A DNA stretch of 64,000 nucleotides from Nitrososphaerota archaeon (GTDB lineage Archaea; Thermoproteota; Nitrososphaeria; Nitrososphaerales; Nitrosopumilaceae): positions 1-64,000 of the forward strand of contig JAGWGA010000003.1 in assembly GCA_028867675.1 (NCBI GenBank), read 5' to 3'. Each line of letters opens with the position of its first letter. Within the stretch, counting starts at the first letter, position 1. Below the pieces are notes generated by a model. The model was given only the letters and a program-made list of their open reading frames with translations, had not been told where the DNA came from and ran no database searches. The translations under genes and the position numbers were made by a program. Below are positions 12,432 through 36,101 of this stretch, one piece after another.

Positions 12432-12500
12432 TAATCCATTTTTAAGAGAACTATATTTGAGCTTTGGCGGTTGGCACAGTTTAATTAAAAGTTGAATTAT

Positions 12501-13943
12501 GTGACCTTGTTGAAAGAAGAAGTTTCGTCTGCTATAACATATGCACTAAGCAAAGGGTTTCAGATTCATCCTGATGCGTTTAGGATTTTAGAAAAAATTG
12601 ATGTAAAGGAGCTTCAAAATATAATAAAACAAGTTGTACGGGAAAAACCCAAACAAAACTTGTTTTTAATAAATCAAAGCGACCTGAAGATGTTTGTAGA
12701 ATCAGAAATTGATGATACCATAGAAAATAATCATGTTATTTTGTTTGATCCTACTCAGAAAGTGACATCTGCAGAAGGAATTGATGGTTTTACTAGACTA
12801 TTCCAGGATAGATATGCAAAACTACTCAAAATCATGATGCAACGCTCCCAATCAAAGAAACTAACACCAATTTCAAGTGTAACTAATGGTAAATTGGATG
12901 AGGAGACCTATATTGCAGGCCTATTGATGGACAGAAGAATAGACAGGGATGTGACAAAACTTGTCATTGACGATCCTTCAGGTTCTATAGAGTTGTTAAT
13001 TTTCAATAAAGAGATTCAAGATACTGCAAATTCGTTATTGATGGACCAGTTTGTCATGATTTCTATTGCAAGTGGAAAGAATGGAGGATTTTTTGTAAAA
13101 GAGATTCTAGTTCCTGATATCCCTGACCATATTGCAAATCGCTCAAAATCAGAAACTTATGCTGTCTTGATTTCTGACTTGCATGTTGGTAGCAAGTTTT
13201 TCATGGAAAAGGAGTTCTCAGAGTTTGTTTTATGGTTATCTAGTCCAGATCCTGTAGCAAGGAAGGTACGATTTGTTTTGGTTGGGGGTGATATCATAGA
13301 TGGAATTGGAATATTTCCAAATCAGGACAAGGAACTTTTGCTTATGGATGTTGACCAGCAAATGGCAAAAGCTGCTGAGATGTTAGATAAGATTCCAAAA
13401 CACATCAAGGTGTTTATCATTCCAGGAAACCACGATCCAGGAAGAAGGGCACTTCCGCAGCCGGCCATTCCCGAAAAGCATAACATGCACCTATGGAATA
13501 GAGAGAACTTCTTTATGCTTGGAAACCCGTCCTTGCTTGATCTAAATGGGGTTAAGATTTTGATGTTCCATGGTCAGAGCCTTGATGATGTTGTAGGTAG
13601 TACTCCAGGCTTGAGTTATGCGCAGCCTGCTAAAGCCATGAGGACTTTACTGAGGACTAGACATTTGAGTCCCATATATGGCAAGAGAACTCCAATTGCA
13701 CCAGAATTAGAAGATTTAATGGTAATATCTGAGGTTCCTGATATTTATCATTCTGGACATATTCATGTTGTAGATTTGGATATGTACAAGGGAACTTTGA
13801 TTGTAAACTCTGGTGCATGGCAAAGCCAGACTCCATTTCAGGCAAGTGTTGGAATCAGTCCAACACCTGGGATTGCTATAATTGTAAACCTTGCAACGAT
13901 GAAGGTTTTTACAAAAGACTTTACAGAAAAATCTGAGTTATAA
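12501..13943 (+). CDS. polB: DNA polymerase D small subunit (DP1)
   Basis: The small (DP1) subunit of archaeal replicative polymerase PolD is about 480 residues long. The C-terminal calcineurin-like phosphoesterase fold supplies the 3'-5' proofreading exonuclease. Its metal motifs are all present: SDLHVGS, GGDIIDG, PGNHDPGR, FHGQS and SGHIHVVD. An OB-fold region (about residues 135-215) lies before it. The frame opens at a TTG (12492). I prefer the GTG at 12501, with TTTAATTAAAAG about 20 bp upstream, but the start is not certain. The gene overlaps the convergent Orc1/Cdc6 gene by 6 bp. Its partner DP2 is 4.3 kb downstream. Confidence 0.95.
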   Translation: MTLLKEEVSSAITYALSKGFQIHPDAFRILEKIDVKELQNIIKQVVREKPKQNLFLINQSDLKMFVESEIDDTIENNHVILFDPTQKVTSAEGIDGFTRLFQDRYAKLLKIMMQRSQSKKLTPISSVTNGKLDEETYIAGLLMDRRIDRDVTKLVIDDPSGSIELLIFNKEIQDTANSLLMDQFVMISIASGKNGGFFVKEILVPDIPDHIANRSKSETYAVLISDLHVGSKFFMEKEFSEFVLWLSSPDPVARKVRFVLVGGDIIDGIGIFPNQDKELLLMDVDQQMAKAAEMLDKIPKHIKVFIIPGNHDPGRRALPQPAIPEKHNMHLWNRENFFMLGNPSLLDLNGVKILMFHGQSLDDVVGSTPGLSYAQPAKAMRTLLRTRHLSPIYGKRTPIAPELEDLMVISEVPDIYHSGHIHVVDLDMYKGTLIVNSGAWQSQTPFQASVGISPTPGIAIIVNLATMKVFTKDFTEKSEL

Positions 13944-15161
13944 CAGATCTTCTAAAGTTAGATCTTCTTTAAATGCTTTTTTCACAGTATCAGGGTTTAG
14001 TGTAAGGTTGTATTTTTTGGTCCTACCATGCATTCCTTGGTGAACTATTTTTCCTGAAATTAATCCAGTCATTTCTATTTCACTTAGCATTTGAGTAATT
14101 CTGCGTTGAGTAAGTTCTTTTTGTCTTGTTATTTTGCAGAGGTTTTTGTATGAATGATAAATTTCTCCGGTAGTATTTCCACTTGCTTTCATTACTCCTA
14201 AGATTAGTAATTTTTCATGTAGTGGATATGAGTTTAGGGCTGTTGTTTCCTTGTCTTCTTCCATCTTAAGTGATGCTCTTCGGATATGGTCCTCTTTTAC
14301 GGTATCAGATTGTTCACGTTCTGCAATTTCACCTGCAACTCTAAGAAGATCTATGGCTCTTCTTGCATCACCATGTTCTTGCCCAGACATGGCAGAACAA
14401 AGATTCACGGCTGCCTGCTCTACTGTATTTGGAATAAAGGCTTCCTTGATTCGTTCTTCTAGGATTTCTTTGATCTGGCCTACGGTATAGTTAGTAAAGA
14501 CTACCTCTTCTTCACTAAGACTGCTCAGAACCCTAGGGTCCAGGCGCTCTTTGAATGTCAAGTCGTTTGAGATTCCAATTAGAGTCAAAGTCCCCTTCTT
14601 TAGACGCTCATTTGCTCTTGTTAATGAATAGAATACGTCCTTGCCTGACTTTGATACCAACTCTACCAGATAATCGATCTCATCTACTACAAAGACAGTA
14701 TTTAGGCCATCCTTTTCAATTGCTGAAATTATTCTGTTAAAGACTTCACTTATTGATAATCCAGTTGACGGCAACTCTTTTTGTGATGTAAGGCCCAACT
14801 GCCTTCCAAGTTTTACTAGTAAACCATAGAGAGTAGTTTCTTCTTTTGCATTTGCATAAAGAAGGTGTATTGGAAATGAATTGTCTTTTATTCTCTCTTG
14901 TATCTTTCCAAGTACTTTTTTTACTACAAGGGTCTTTCCAGTTCCTGGTTTGCCGTAAACCAATAAGTTAGATGGACGAGATTTTTTTAATAATGGTAAT
15001 AGTGATTGAGTGACCTTTTTTTGCTCTTCTTCTCTATGTAAAATTACATCTGGGATAAACGAATAGTGAAGGATCTCGCGATTTTTAAACAATGACTTGC
15101 CGCTCTCTGCATCATCTAGTAATTTATCAATCGGGTCTTTTACCAATATCCCACACACCAT
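13938..15161 (-). CDS. cdc6: Origin-recognition / helicase-loading ATPase Orc1/Cdc6
   Basis: This AAA+ initiator of about 407 residues has Walker A YGKPGTGKT (about 70-77 from this start), Walker B NTVFVVDEIDYL, and sensor 1 LIGISND. A C-terminal winged helix (about 325-400) includes an ITRQKELTQRRITQML recognition region. It binds origins and loads MCM. A GTG at 15179 would add six residues. I choose the ATG at 15161 because a purine-rich GAGGAG lies 6 bp before it. It is transcribed away from the adjacent 440-bp non-coding region, which carries origin-like repeats, the usual archaeal arrangement. Confidence 0.95.
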   Translation of the reverse strand: MVCGILVKDPIDKLLDDAESGKSLFKNREILHYSFIPDVILHREEEQKKVTQSLLPLLKKSRPSNLLVYGKPGTGKTLVVKKVLGKIQERIKDNSFPIHLLYANAKEETTLYGLLVKLGRQLGLTSQKELPSTGLSISEVFNRIISAIEKDGLNTVFVVDEIDYLVELVSKSGKDVFYSLTRANERLKKGTLTLIGISNDLTFKERLDPRVLSSLSEEEVVFTNYTVGQIKEILEERIKEAFIPNTVEQAAVNLCSAMSGQEHGDARRAIDLLRVAGEIAEREQSDTVKEDHIRRASLKMEEDKETTALNSYPLHEKLLILGVMKASGNTTGEIYHSYKNLCKITRQKELTQRRITQMLSEIEMTGLISGKIVHQGMHGRTKKYNLTLNPDTVKKAFKEDLTLEDLL

Positions 15162-15229
15162 TGTTTCTCCTCTGTCCACATATGGATTCTACCATAATAA
15201 TCAAATTAGAATATCATAACTAAACCAAA

Positions 15230-15286
15230 TTTAGTATATCATTAATTATTTTTATTTTTATTTTCATTAAAAAAAATTTTAAGAAA
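15230..15286. other. AT-rich putative DNA-unwinding element
   Basis: A run of almost pure A and T (for example TTTTTATTTTTATTTTC, then eight A residues) begins about 70 bp from the cdc6 start and ends about 100 bp before the first ORB-like repeat. It is the most AT-rich stretch in this non-coding region, so it is the likely melting site if the region is an origin. It may also carry the cdc6 promoter. Confidence 0.5.
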
Positions 15287-15383
15287 AGCTAGAGTGGAAG
15301 TATAGGTGTGTGGGCATTCCTAAAATGAAGTTAACAATTAATGAACATTCTGTTAAGGTTTGGACCTGAAAAGCCCAAAATAA

Positions 15384-15407
15384 CCCCATTATTTCCAGTC
15401 CAGGCGT
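15384..15407 (-). repeat. ORB-like origin repeat, copy 1
   Basis: Plus strand: CCCCATTATTTCCAGTCC followed by AGGCGT. It differs from copy 2 at a single position. Read on the minus strand it ends in TGGAAATAATGGGG, which resembles the TGGAAA plus G-string half of archaeal origin recognition boxes bound by Orc1/Cdc6 winged helices. Confidence 0.6.
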
Positions 15408-15445
15408 GAAGATGAATCTTAACATTGTTAATATCCTAAAGGAGA

Positions 15446-15469
15446 CCCCCTTATTTCCAGTCCAGGCGT
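15446..15469 (-). repeat. ORB-like origin repeat, copy 2
   Basis: Plus strand: CCCCCTTATTTCCAGTCC followed by AGGCGT, 62 bp downstream of copy 1, in the same orientation. That spacing is about six helical turns, so both sites would face the same side of the DNA. Its five-base C run gives a stronger G-string than copy 1. Confidence 0.6.
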
Positions 15470-15524
15470 CAAATTATGTCCATTTTAGATATAAGATTGG
15501 TACAGCCTGTTAAGATACATGGAA

Positions 15525-15544
15525 AGGCTAGGCGTAGGCTAGGC
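15525..15544 (+). repeat. Tandem 9-bp repeat near the candidate origin
   Basis: AGGCTAGGC occurs twice (15525-15533 and 15536-15544) with a 2-bp spacer. The inner TAGGCGT shares the AGGCGT ending of the two ORB-like repeats. It may be a weak extra protein site; nothing stronger can be said. Confidence 0.35.
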
Positions 15545-15551
15545 AGTGAAT

Positions 15552-15610
15552 GTTAACAAACTCACTAGTTAACAAATCTTCTATGATCTGTTCAAGTGTT
15601 AACAGTTAAC
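15552..15610. promoter_or_regulatory. Cluster of GTTAAC palindromes (possible operator)
   Basis: Four copies of the palindrome GTTAAC start at 15552, 15568, 15598 and 15605, and a fifth lies at 15330. Two share the longer GTTAACAAA. They end 12 bp before the ATG at 15623, so they could be operator sites for that gene or part of the origin. Confidence 0.4.
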
Positions 15611-15622
15611 CAGATCATCCCA

Positions 15623-16012
15623 ATGGCACGAAAAAGAATCAGAATAGACTTGGAGGACTCGGATGGCGCAAAGTACAACTTTAGCCTAGAAGGTAACGTA
15701 ACCCGAGAAAAAATGCTAAAGATATTTGAATTGATGAATTTGATGAACATTGAAGAGCCAGAGACCTTGGCACAACTGGACTCGGTGGGAGCCAAAATCT
15801 GGAATGTTATAGACAAGAACTTTCCAATTGGCAAGTTTACATCATCAATGATTCTAGAAAAATATGAAGATGAATATGAAGAGCCAATCAAACTAAGTGT
15901 GATCTCTACCTATCTCTCCAGATTTGCTGTAAAGGGTAGGGTAGTTAGGGAGAAACAAGGCAAAGAATGGGCCTACCAGATACAAAAAATTGCTCAAAGA
16001 GAAAAGCCTTAG
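15623..16012 (+). CDS. Conserved protein with predicted winged-helix C-terminus, unknown
   Basis: From the ATG at 15623 the protein has 129 residues. It begins with a basic strand MARKRIRIDLED and a short beta meander. A helical section follows (about 30-75), then what looks like a winged helix (ISTYLSRFAVKGRVVREKQG with a wing and EWAYQI). I do not recognise a named family. A GTG at 15596 would extend it into the GTTAAC cluster and is less likely. Its position directly beside the candidate origin, facing away from cdc6, makes a replication or regulatory link worth testing, but that is inference. Confidence 0.75.
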   Translation: MARKRIRIDLEDSDGAKYNFSLEGNVTREKMLKIFELMNLMNIEEPETLAQLDSVGAKIWNVIDKNFPIGKFTSSMILEKYEDEYEEPIKLSVISTYLSRFAVKGRVVREKQGKEWAYQIQKIAQREKP

Positions 16013-16161
16013 GAGATGATTACTTTCTTAACAAGCAAATGATCTCCATCGATGGAGACTTTAACATAATCACCTTTTTGTAATTCTAAAAATTTTCTAA
16101 AGTCTTTTGGGATTGAAATCGTGCCTGCAGTGGTTATCTTGATTAATTGCTCATTAGGCAT
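16009..16161 (-). CDS. SpoVT/AbrB-like swapped-hairpin protein (50 aa)
   Basis: A frame of 50 residues encodes a SpoVT/AbrB-type domain: LIKITTAGTISIPKDFRKF, then LELQKGDYVKVSIDGD and LLVKKV. The core TAGTISIPKDFR corresponds to the family's G-x-(I/V)-x-(I/L)-P-x-x-(I/F/L)-R motif. These domains dimerise and bind DNA, as in AbrB, MazE and many archaeal regulators. No toxin gene lies next to it, so an antitoxin role is not supported. The gene ends inside the stop of the convergent gene (4-bp overlap). A TATA-like TTATAATATAATA is just upstream. Confidence 0.8.
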   Translation of the reverse strand: MPNEQLIKITTAGTISIPKDFRKFLELQKGDYVKVSIDGDHLLVKKVIIS

Positions 16162-16356
16162 GATATTATATTATAAGAACATTAATTTAAGAATTATGTA
16201 TTATATACAAATAATAAATAATGATAACTTTTGTAGACTTTGACAGAAAATCGATGATAATTTTTAGAAATTGACTGGAGGAAAACCGGCAGTGGTTTTC
16301 AAAAACTTGTGATCTTAAAGTTGTAAAAGGTAGCTCAGGTATTGATATCCCTAAAA
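16162..16356. other. Intergenic region with a small inverted repeat
   Basis: 195 bp without a supported gene. It holds a perfect 7-bp stem, GAAAACC (16281-16287) and GGTTTTC (16294-16300), around a 6-base loop. There is no T-run directly after it on the plus strand, so a terminator is only one possibility. The remainder is AT-rich promoter-like sequence for the AbrB-like gene. Confidence 0.35.
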
Positions 16357-18228: not shown

Positions 18229-21200
18229 ATGTCAGAAAATCTTGCATTAAGACTAAAAGAAGTCCCAATGCCTCAAGACTATTTTGACTATTATACAAAA
18301 TTATCAGAAGGCGTATTTACTATATTTGAGCAAGCTGCAGCTGCAAAAGCTACGCTTGCCGACTCCTCAGGAATGGTAGAGCCAAAGATTGCATTTGATC
18401 TTGCAGACCGTGTATCAAAAATGCACGACATTGATGTTACAGATAATCTTCGAGCTTTAATCCAAAATACTCCAAAGGAGCTTGCTGCGTTAAAACTTGC
18501 AGAAGATATTGCCTCAGGAAAATACTCTGGTCCAGATACTGATCTTCAAACAAAACTTGACCTTGCCGTTCGTGTGGCATTGGCCATAGTGACTGAAGGT
18601 GTTACTATTGCTCCCCTTCAAGGAATCAGTGAGGTAAAAATCAAGAAAAACGCAGACGGCTCTGAATATCTCTCTGTATCATTTGCAGGTCCAATTAGAT
18701 CAGCTGGTGGTACAGAAGCTGCAGCTACAATGTTAATTGCAGACCATGTGAGAAAAATTGCAGGACTTGGAAAGTTCCAGGCCAATTCATTCGATGATGA
18801 GACTGGAAGATTTGTTGAAGAACTTCGAGTATACGAAAGAGAGGTTGGAAGTTTCCAGTTTCATGTTCCTGATCAAGATGTTGTAAGTGTAATCTCAAAT
18901 TTACCAGTTGAGATTGATGGAGTAGATACTGACTTGGTAGAGATTGTAAGCCATAGAAACATGGTACGAATTAGTACCAATAGAGTTCGAGGAGGAGCCC
19001 TTCGTGTACTAAATGATGGATTGATTGGAAGGTCTCGTAAACTGCTAAAACTTATAGAATTGTACAAACTTGACGGCTGGGACTGGCTAAAAGACCTCAA
19101 GGGGGCAATCCAGACTGGAGACGCTGATGCAGCAGCCCATAGAATGAGAGAAGTCATAACGGGAAGGTCTGTTCTCTCCATGCCTAAGAAACTAGGTGGA
19201 TTTAGGCTCAGATACGGCCGTGCGTGCAATACTGGGTTTGCGTCAATTGGGATACATCCTGTAGTTGCAGAGATTTTGGATCATGCAATAGCTGTTGGAA
19301 CCCAGATCAAACTAGACATTCCTGGTAAGGCCTCAACTGTAGCCTTTGTAGATTCAATTGACACGCCAATTGTTAGACTAACAAACGGTAATGTTGTAAA
19401 AATCAAAGATGTATCTCATGGAATATCTCTCAAACCACAAATTGCAAAAATTTTGCATCTTGGTGACATTTTGATAAGTTATGGAGATTTTCTTGAAAAC
19501 AATGCAGAGCTTGTACCAACTGGATATGTTGAAGAATTTTGGGCCCAGGAACTAAAAGATAAGGTACTAAAATACGAGCCAAACGATACTGAACTTTTAA
19601 GCTATGAAAATAAAATCCCTGATCTTGAAGAAGCATTTAGAATATCACTAAACTTTGGAATCGGTCTTCATCCAAAATATCTTTACTATTGGGATCAAAT
19701 TACATCTGATGAACTTGAATCAATTCTAAAACCACAACAAGTAGAATCAGACTTGATAATTTATTCAATTGATGCAAAAGATGTTTTGGAAAAACTTGGT
19801 GTTCCACATGAGGTTACAGGAAATACAATACTTTTGAAAAATTTAGAATCCAAGATATTTTTTTATTTATTATTTAGAAAACCAATCCAACTTGAAAAAG
19901 ACCTGACCGTTCCTCAGATTATAACCCAGTCATCTGGAATTAAAATTCCAAATAAATTCTCAACATCTATAGGAGTACGAGTTGGAAGACCTGAAAAAGC
20001 TGCACTACGAAAGATGAAGCCTCCCGTTCATACTCTATTTCCCGTTGGGAATAAAGGAGGAGCATCACGTGATCTACTAAAAGCAGCCAAGCAGCCAAAC
20101 TTTTACTGCAACATCTACAATAGATTTTGTAAAAATTGTAACGTTCCTTGCATCAGTATAGCATGTCCAAAATGTCATGAAAAAACAAGTACCATCTACA
20201 TTTGTAAAAAATGCAGAGACGAGCTTGACACCAACTATTGCTCAAAATGCAAGTCCCGTGCATATGGTCACTCGTATCGCTCATTTCCTCTCAAGGACCT
20301 CCTAAATGCCGCTCAAGAAAGGACTGGATTTAGAGCTCAAGAGCCATTCAAGGGCGTAAAGGAGCTAATAAACCAAGACAGAGTGCCTGAACCACTTGAA
20401 AAAGGCCTTATAAGACAAAGCCTTGGACTTAATGTATTCAAAGATGGAACAATTAGATTTGATGCAACAAATGCTCCGCTGTCACACTTTAAACCATCAT
20501 GGATTGGAACAACACCACAAAAACTAATCGAACTTGGATATACACATGATATCGAAGGCAAGCCACTTGAAAACTCGCATCAAGACATTGAACTTCGAGT
20601 CCAAGATGTTATAATTCCAAAAGAATGTGGAGATAGTCTTGTTTTTGTTTGTCAATATATTGATAGAGAACTTGCAAAACTTTTTGGTGCTGCTCCATTT
20701 TACAATGTTAAATCTACTGAAGATCTTGTAGGACATCTAATCATTGGTCTTGCACCACATACATCAGTTGGTATAGTTGGAAGAATTATCGGATACACTA
20801 ACACACAGGTATGTCTTGGAACTGCAGTTTGGCATTCTGCAAAAAGACGTGATGCTGACGGTGATGCAGATTCTATAATGTTACTAATGGACAGTCTGCT
20901 AAACTTTTCAAGATTATTTTTATCAGATAGAATTGGTGGACTGATGGACGCACCACTACTTGTTCAGCCAATCGTAATTCCTCAAGAGGTACAAAGACAG
21001 GCACACAACTATGAAGTAGTCAAGGCATATCCATTATCATTTTTTGAAGCTACCTTGAGAAAAGACAAGGCAAGTGAAATCAAAGATGTTGAAATTTTAA
21101 AATCAAGACTAGAGACAGAAAGACAATTTCTAGGACATGACTGTACACATGTTACATCTACACTTACAACATCAAAATCGCGTAGTGCTTATTCTACTCT

Positions 21201-21603
21201 TGGCTCGTTGCTTGAAAAACTTGACATGCAGATTCGAACTGCCGATATCATAAACGCAGTAGACCCAAGTGAGGTCGTATCAATGGTGATGACAACTCAC
21301 TTACTTCCTGATATAATGGGCAACTTGAGAGCCTATTCTGGACAGTCATTTAGATGCACTGCATGTGGTGCAAGCTATAGGAGAATTCCTCTGGTTGGAA
21401 AATGTCTTGAATGTGGACATGAATTGATCCAAACAATATCTAGACCTTCTGTGCAAAAATATCTAAAACTTGCAAGAAGAATGCTTAACAAGTATACTAT
21501 AGCACCATATCTTAGAGGACGTGTGCTTTCTTTATTGGATGAACTAGAACTCGTATTTGGCAAAGAAGAAAGTAGTCAGTCTATACTAACAGACTTTGCT
21601 TAA
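18229..21603 (+). CDS. polC: DNA polymerase D large subunit (DP2)
   Basis: This is the catalytic subunit of PolD, with 1124 residues. GGFRLRYGRACNTGF lies in the N-terminal half. A cluster of Cys-x2-Cys knuckles sits at about 640-685 (CKNC, CPKC, CKKCRDEL, CSKCKSR), and a second zinc knuckle near the C-terminus (CTACGASY, CLECGHEL). The catalytic segment is KRRDADGDADSIMLLMD (about 875-890), where Asp residues hold magnesium in the two-barrel polymerase. Some archaea carry inteins in DP2; none is present here. It follows GGGPS by one base and overlaps the convergent SHMT gene by 4 bp. Confidence 0.97.
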   Translation: MSENLALRLKEVPMPQDYFDYYTKLSEGVFTIFEQAAAAKATLADSSGMVEPKIAFDLADRVSKMHDIDVTDNLRALIQNTPKELAALKLAEDIASGKYSGPDTDLQTKLDLAVRVALAIVTEGVTIAPLQGISEVKIKKNADGSEYLSVSFAGPIRSAGGTEAAATMLIADHVRKIAGLGKFQANSFDDETGRFVEELRVYEREVGSFQFHVPDQDVVSVISNLPVEIDGVDTDLVEIVSHRNMVRISTNRVRGGALRVLNDGLIGRSRKLLKLIELYKLDGWDWLKDLKGAIQTGDADAAAHRMREVITGRSVLSMPKKLGGFRLRYGRACNTGFASIGIHPVVAEILDHAIAVGTQIKLDIPGKASTVAFVDSIDTPIVRLTNGNVVKIKDVSHGISLKPQIAKILHLGDILISYGDFLENNAELVPTGYVEEFWAQELKDKVLKYEPNDTELLSYENKIPDLEEAFRISLNFGIGLHPKYLYYWDQITSDELESILKPQQVESDLIIYSIDAKDVLEKLGVPHEVTGNTILLKNLESKIFFYLLFRKPIQLEKDLTVPQIITQSSGIKIPNKFSTSIGVRVGRPEKAALRKMKPPVHTLFPVGNKGGASRDLLKAAKQPNFYCNIYNRFCKNCNVPCISIACPKCHEKTSTIYICKKCRDELDTNYCSKCKSRAYGHSYRSFPLKDLLNAAQERTGFRAQEPFKGVKELINQDRVPEPLEKGLIRQSLGLNVFKDGTIRFDATNAPLSHFKPSWIGTTPQKLIELGYTHDIEGKPLENSHQDIELRVQDVIIPKECGDSLVFVCQYIDRELAKLFGAAPFYNVKSTEDLVGHLIIGLAPHTSVGIVGRIIGYTNTQVCLGTAVWHSAKRRDADGDADSIMLLMDSLLNFSRLFLSDRIGGLMDAPLLVQPIVIPQEVQRQAHNYEVVKAYPLSFFEATLRKDKASEIKDVEILKSRLETERQFLGHDCTHVTSTLTTSKSRSAYSTLGSLLEKLDMQIRTADIINAVDPSEVVSMVMTTHLLPDIMGNLRAYSGQSFRCTACGASYRRIPLVGKCLECGHELIQTISRPSVQKYLKLARRMLNKYTIAPYLRGRVLSLLDELELVFGKEESSQSILTDFA

Positions 21604-35515: not shown

Positions 35516-35561
35516 CTATACGTCTTGCTAACCTATAGGCATTATTCTCCCTCCAATTTTT

Positions 35562-35705
35562 TTATGCTTTTATCAGTTGATGATATTTTTGTTTGGCAAA
35601 ATAATCCTCTATGCATTCCTTGTGAGTATAACCAAAAGCATTGCATGTGTTTTGACAGAACCAGCAGACTCCTCTACGATACCTTGGTGACTTATTTTCT
35701 ACCAT
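35562..35705 (-). CDS. Small zinc-finger-like protein (47 aa)
   Basis: A 47-residue frame has a compact Cys/His set: CWFCQNTC (residues 14-21) followed by HKEC (28-31), enough to hold one zinc ion. The flanks are basic (NKSPRYRRG and AKQKYHQLIKA), so nucleic-acid binding is plausible. The opposite strand also has an open frame of 60 codons with a C-x2-C and C-x-C, but this strand gives the cleaner zinc motif. Confidence 0.55.
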   Translation of the reverse strand: MVENKSPRYRRGVCWFCQNTCNAFGYTHKECIEDYFAKQKYHQLIKA

Positions 35706-35834
35706 GATGTAATAATACGTCATTCCAAGTATTATCTATGATCTTTAATTATTTTCAAAGTATGCAAGTAATAATCAGTAACATATTTCTTCTAAATAAT
35801 GATTATATTATTGCATAATATTTTCATGATCAAT

Positions 35835-35846
35835 TTTATATTTTTG
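35835..35846 (+). promoter_or_regulatory. TATA box of the 43-aa zinc-ribbon gene
   Basis: TTTATATTTTTG is centred about 24 bp before the ATG at 35864. It has the right spacing for a leaderless mRNA and supports the reality of the very short gene. Confidence 0.5.
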
Positions 35847-35863
35847 TAATGCTATATTATAAT

Positions 35864-35995
35864 ATGAAAAAAGAATTCTGCCACTTCTGCAAAGAAGGGG
35901 GCAAACAATGTGTTCAAGTTGACACAGTATCACAAGTATACATGGAAATGTTTCATGTTACATGTGCAAAATGTGGACGACAATTGATTTCGTAA
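35864..35995 (+). CDS. Small zinc-ribbon-like protein (43 aa)
   Basis: This short frame encodes MKKEFCHFCKEGGKQC, then an acidic and aromatic middle, then TCAKCGRQLIS. The spacing C-x2-C (6, 9) and C-x2-C (34, 37) is that of a zinc ribbon, with Cys16 in addition. It is divergent from the other tiny zinc-finger gene at 35562-35705. Function unknown; single zinc ribbons may be adaptor or transcription-factor-like proteins in archaea. Confidence 0.65.
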   Translation: MKKEFCHFCKEGGKQCVQVDTVSQVYMEMFHVTCAKCGRQLIS

Positions 35996-36101
35996 ATTAT
36001 TTTTTTATGTTGTAAAAAATAAGTTGCAAATATGCCAAACAAAAATTTCTAATTTGTATAGTTTAGTCTGACATTACTACGTACCGTTTTTGGTATTTGG
36101 T

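Follow-up and report, generated by a model that had tools for sequence, protein, structure and literature searches.

A probable oriC1-type chromosomal replication origin beside orc1/cdc6 in a member of the Nitrosopumilaceae

Introduction

The gene-free gap beside orc1/cdc6 in a Nitrosopumilaceae genome raises the question of whether replication of the chromosome starts there and, if so, which DNA elements define the start. For ammonia-oxidizing archaea, knowledge of replication origins comes almost entirely from one marker-frequency map; a single origin has been mapped in Nitrosopumilus maritimus (Pelve 2013, via PMC4010727 and PMC5333045). In view of that map, the statement of the original prediction that thaumarchaeal origins are poorly mapped should be toned down. 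The type of site is already known: ORBs beside cdc have been mentioned for thaumarchaea (PMC5797428), and ORBs beside cdc6 were used earlier (Ori-Finder 2) to place thaumarchaeal origins. For the gap studied here, the prediction of a chromosomal origin is supported by matches to ORBs, by a conserved pair of these (C and D), by the adjoining sole orc1 gene and by the skew of one complete relative (G003), and we consider it very probable that the gap is a chromosomal replication origin of the oriC1 type.

Gene setting and initiator

The window, by which we mean the whole 64,000-nucleotide stretch of DNA that was analysed, is contig C158 of an assembly of 1.74 Mb in 224 contigs, from a family that includes Nitrosopumilus. 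The genes around the gap are:

12492-13943: DP1 (Pfam), adjoining orc1/cdc6
13938-15161, minus strand: orc1/cdc6 (Pfam Cdc6_lid and Cdc6_C), ATG at 15161
15623-16012, plus strand: divergent gene of a 129-residue winged-helix protein (AlphaFold model, weak Foldseek matches)
18229-21603: DP2 (Pfam), 3 kb past the gap

The proposed clustering of DP1, Orc1/Cdc6 and DP2 is confirmed by Pfam, with all three inside 9.1 kb. The gap itself had been placed at 15187-15610; the gene-free region is real, but its true limits, given by the start codons of orc1 (15161) and of the divergent gene (15623), are 15162-15622, a space of 461 bp. That this is the largest gene-free gap of the window is plausible, yet uncertain, because the ORF-poor stretch 35516-36101 (from mechanically called ORFs) is longer, although it holds two small ORFs. 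These, on opposite strands, contain CxxC pairs and are possibly zinc-ribbon microproteins. Bacterial-type promoters, terminators and structured RNAs were also considered and account for nothing in the origin gap.

Across the 1.74 Mb assembly, Cdc6_C has a single match, which is the gene adjoining the gap. The nearest solved relatives of its product are Sso Orc1-1 (2qby_A, E 7e-85) and Orc1 of Aeropyrum pernix (2v1u_A, E 9e-83); sequence places this initiator in the Orc1-1 type. The adjoining initiator gene that marks an oriC1 is therefore present, with its ATG at 15161.

ORB boxes and AT tract

Two same-orientation repeats had been described in the gap. They extend over 15383-15410 and 15445-15472, are identical in 26/28 positions and start 62 bp apart, and the copies of their 24-bp core do differ at one base. 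The mini-ORB-like TGGAAATAAGGGG noted on the minus strand is exact at 15447 and has one mismatch at 15385. When two mismatches are allowed, this 13-mer is not significant alone (3 found against 1.7 expected by chance); therefore we scored boxes with the published common archaeal ORB motif of Ori-Finder 2, TCCA[CG]T[TG]GAAA[TC][GA]AAGGGGT, which has 20 positions (PMC4164010). Besides the two repeats, the gap has two ORBs that the original prediction lacked, the inverted ORB-B and the degenerate ORB-A, and the boxes and the AT tract follow each other in the order A(-), AT tract, B(+), C(-), D(-):

15155-15174, minus strand: ORB-A, degenerate, GAGGAGAAACAATGGTGT..., lying across the orc1 start codon; most other genera have a recognisable box here
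15185-15288, no strand: AT tract, 85.6% AT, between ORB-A (minus) and ORB-B (plus)
15290-15309, plus strand: ORB-B, TAGAGTGGAAGTATAGGTGT, in the opposite orientation to C and D; 15/20 to the common motif
15383-15402, minus strand: ORB-C, TGGACTGGAAATAATGGGGT, the first of the two repeats; 17/20
15445-15464, minus strand: ORB-D, TGGACTGGAAATAAGGGGGT, the second repeat; 17/20, 62 bp from ORB-C

The site thus carries several ORBs, two at 17/20, one at 15/20 and one degenerate. C and D end in a G-string of GGGGT or GGGGGT, for which B has the variant GGTGTG. ORB-A is clearer at the equivalent place in other genera (e.g. TACAGTGGAAATGAAGGTGT): the A-site scores at least 14/20 in 91/108 family loci outside the host genus, against 6/28 within it. 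The core of ORB-B is invariant in the genus alignment, and the B site is present in 132 of the 136 Nitrosopumilaceae loci. Throughout the Nitrosopumilaceae the first half-site of the boxes is altered from TCCA to T[AG]GA, with GCCT added before it. Orc1 residues that vary along with this alteration were looked for; the candidates are weak, the main one being residue 384 in the wing of the winged helix, which is His in 138/138 sequences of the family and Tyr in 87% of those from families with canonical ORBs; this residue may track the changed half-site.

The AT tract had been called prone to melting; the most AT-rich 100-mers of the window fall in 15185-15288. It is kept among the genus relatives in the alignment and lies, as an AT-rich element, between inverted ORBs, of which ORB-A is weak in the host genus. 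The tract is the probable duplex-unwinding element. It probably also houses the orc1 promoter, and since it would double as promoter region, its conservation is no proof of an unwinding element.

Conservation of the layout

As the original prediction expected, the repeats recur beside orc1/cdc6 in close relatives with enough sequence: 28/28 loci within the genus and 108/108 from the rest of the family. The C/D pair is found in 136/136 Nitrosopumilaceae loci, always spaced by 61-62 bp, and in 23 of the 29 loci that represent other families of the order, spaced by 59-64 bp; the other 6 of these 29 loci lack it. No such pair occurred in 825 mononucleotide-shuffled regions, and in two complete relatives (G002 and G003), each sampled over 1.2 Mb, it was seen at the origin only. 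In the other families, boxes at homologous positions are often canonical in 20/20 positions (TCCAGTGGAAACAAAGGGGT), which ties the diverged boxes of the Nitrosopumilaceae to known ORBs.

The whole intergenic space is conserved in blocks in an alignment of 27 genus loci. Many complete relatives (G052, G079, G099, G109, G141, G002) are linearised within 7-150 bp of orc1, which lies, for example, at base 7 in G002 or at about 140; depositors thus already take this place as base 1, as is done for predicted origins.

A second box array and the divergent winged-helix gene

Several GTTAAC sites, together with an overlapping palindrome of 86% at 15583-15618, confirm the palindrome cluster that had been noted in the gap. 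Over the whole gap there are nine TGTTAA[CG] half-sites, forming about seven boxes, where 0.1-0.2 would be expected, and nine were reached by 0/20000 Markov sequences. The boxes, none of which is assigned a strand, are:

15330-15336: TTAAC box 1, GTTAACA, between ORB-B and ORB-C, at a constant offset from ORB-C in the family
15351-15357: TTAAC box 2, TGTTAAG, at a constant offset
15418-15431: TTAAC box 3, CTTAACATTGTTAA, between ORB-C and ORB-D
15508-15514: TTAAC box 4, TGTTAAG
15551-15558: TTAAC box 5, TGTTAACA
15568-15574: TTAAC box 6, GTTAACA
15597-15609: TTAAC box 7, TGTTAACAGTTAA, inside the 15583-15618 palindrome

Measured from ORB-C, the box offsets are constant family-wide, near -54, -33 or -42, +36, +42, +126, +168, +183 and +213, and several of them are occupied in about 90% or more of the family loci. 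Box 3 stands at an equal offset in all 28 loci of the genus and in 105/108 of those from the rest of the family, and box 5 in 96/108 of the latter. In the sampled parts of G002 and G003, TTAAC boxes are densest at the origin, where 300 bp contain 6 of them in one genome and 7 in the other; a single other cluster of at least three boxes was seen there, and it has three. Among the other families, the boxes are abundant in some and absent in others. No mention of GTTAAC boxes at archaeal origins came up in the open-licence literature, and an array of them that is densest at the origin is apparently undescribed.

The gene that diverges from orc1 across this array encodes a protein whose AlphaFold model (pLDDT 78) comprises an N-terminal β-hairpin and helix, followed by a C-terminal winged helix. 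Foldseek returned weak matches to winged-helix DNA-binding proteins, whereas no curated family scored above its cut-off and no sequence match in the PDB was meaningful. In 71 of the 100 genomes of the order in which both genes were located, the winged-helix gene is divergent and less than 1.6 kb from orc1, and in 8 more the contig starts at orc1 and has the winged-helix gene at its opposite end; in the rest it is arranged otherwise within 5 kb (11), lies further away on the same contig (2) or is on a different contig (8). We regard the protein as a candidate for a second origin-binding or regulatory protein and as the leading candidate for the factor that binds the TTAAC boxes. The gene persists in families without the boxes, however, which weakens this assignment, and a one-to-one link between boxes and gene was rejected on the same grounds.

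What the boxes do is much less certain than the identity of the origin. They lie not only near the winged-helix gene but also between ORB-B, C and D, distant from the gene start and at constant offsets in 136 loci, and the sampled genomes have no comparable cluster elsewhere. These observations speak against a reading that is nevertheless quite possible, given that the boxes are partly clustered in the presumed leader of the winged-helix gene and that a regulator gene adjoins them: the site would be an origin, but the boxes would serve only as operators, for the winged-helix gene or for orc1, with no role in replication. More tentatively, the site could be a two-protein replicator, with Orc1 on the four ORBs and the winged-helix protein on the TTAAC array, the latter being either a counterpart of ucm/UBP or a regulator that sequesters the origin.

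Number and place of origins

The assembly with the window being too fragmented for it, nucleotide skew was sampled on the two complete genus relatives, G002 and G003, over 61-66% of each genome. At this sampling, GC skew in G003 puts the best-fit origin 7.9 kb away from the corresponding site (permutation p 0.017), whereas the best fits in G002 are 244 kb away by GC skew and 94 kb away by keto skew; the keto skew of G002 is nonetheless significant when taken around the site (p 0.0045). The skew signal that the original prediction called for is therefore supported, about 8 kb off, by one genome and left ambiguous by the other.

Second Orc1-like genes, about 30% identical to the chromosomal one, are present in some relatives (G002:C1:120493-121638, G004:C1:201044, G032:C283:126000, G068:C1:326821 and others). 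Cdc6/Orc1 genes have been reported on integrated thaumarchaeal mobile elements (PMC6563490), and the paralogues of the relatives are probably genes of such integrated elements. Together with the displaced skew of G002, they are what favours the view that the site is one of several origins, the others using mobile-element Orc1 paralogues; with one Orc1 in the assembly, one mapped origin in N. maritimus and no second ORB pair in the sampled genomes, we consider this very unlikely. It is likewise very improbable that the gap is a shared control region only, at which Orc1 autoregulates and another protein represses via the TTAAC boxes while initiation occurs elsewhere: the boxes do sit between divergent genes, several of them between the TATA-like TTTAGATATAAG and the ATG at 15623, and ORB-A overlies the orc1 start codon, but the ORB pair and its spacing are kept order-wide and match boxes proven elsewhere as origin sites, neither a second Orc1 gene (in the assembly) nor a second ORB pair (in the sampled genomes) was found, the skew of G003 and the single mapped origin of N. 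maritimus also argue against it, and origin function is compatible with autoregulation.

A model of initiation

For an origin of the oriC1 type, we infer from the arrangement of the elements the following course of events. Orc1/Cdc6 from the neighbouring gene would bind the polar ORBs A, B, C and D as monomers, with the inverted A and B bracketing the 86% AT tract. C and D, whose spacing is about six helical turns, may strengthen binding, and the pair would add initiator near the DUE. By analogy with Sulfolobus (PMC12141716), MCM would be brought to the AT tract by ATP-bound Orc1; melting of the tract and bidirectional replication would follow. The TTAAC boxes, which are in register with the ORBs, would bind a further protein, in all likelihood a regulatory or accessory one, which might bridge or time MCM release like UBP, might repress firing, or might just regulate both flanking genes.

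Comparison with known origins

The site resembles the origin of N. maritimus in family, in apparently being a single origin and in having ORB repeats beside cdc6. Named Nitrosopumilus loci share the layout, and agreement with N. maritimus at the level of single boxes is presumed from the genus.

Sulfolobus oriC1 comprises Orc1-1, ORB1-3, a DUE that is flanked by ORB2 and ORB3, and ucm (PMC12141716). Both sites lie beside orc1-1, have an initiator of the Orc1-1 type, and combine inverted ORBs around an AT-rich element with an extra non-ORB element. Unlike Sulfolobus oriC1, the present site has four boxes, with C and D 61-62 bp apart, and the left half of its ORB dyad has changed from TCCA to T[AG]GA after GCCT. 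Where Sulfolobus has one ucm inside the AT tract, the extra element here is a TTAAC box that is repeated and lies outside the tract, and there is apparently one origin here as opposed to the three of Sulfolobus.

Compared to the ORB family of the Methanomicrobia and the Ori-Finder 2 motif (PMC4164010), several other families of the order match in 20/20 positions, whereas the Nitrosopumilaceae boxes lose the CC of the first half-site and box B ends in GGTGTGTG instead of GGGGT. Relative to the published work that we found, several things look new: the layout shared across the order, the change in the half-site, the TTAAC array in register with the ORBs, and the winged-helix gene conserved beside the origin. 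They amount to a base-level, order-wide anatomy, with four polar ORBs, a pair spaced by 61-62 bp, a family-specific half-site change, a second box array and a DNA-binding neighbour, by which a thaumarchaeal initiator-replicator pair becomes testable in vitro with recombinant Orc1 and winged-helix protein. The anatomy also offers a lead on what controls the firing of archaeal origins besides Orc1.

Just past the winged-helix gene, the interval 16012-16356 holds a short minus-strand ORF with an AbrB-like start (MPNEQLIKITTAGTISIPKDF) and an ORF-free stretch.
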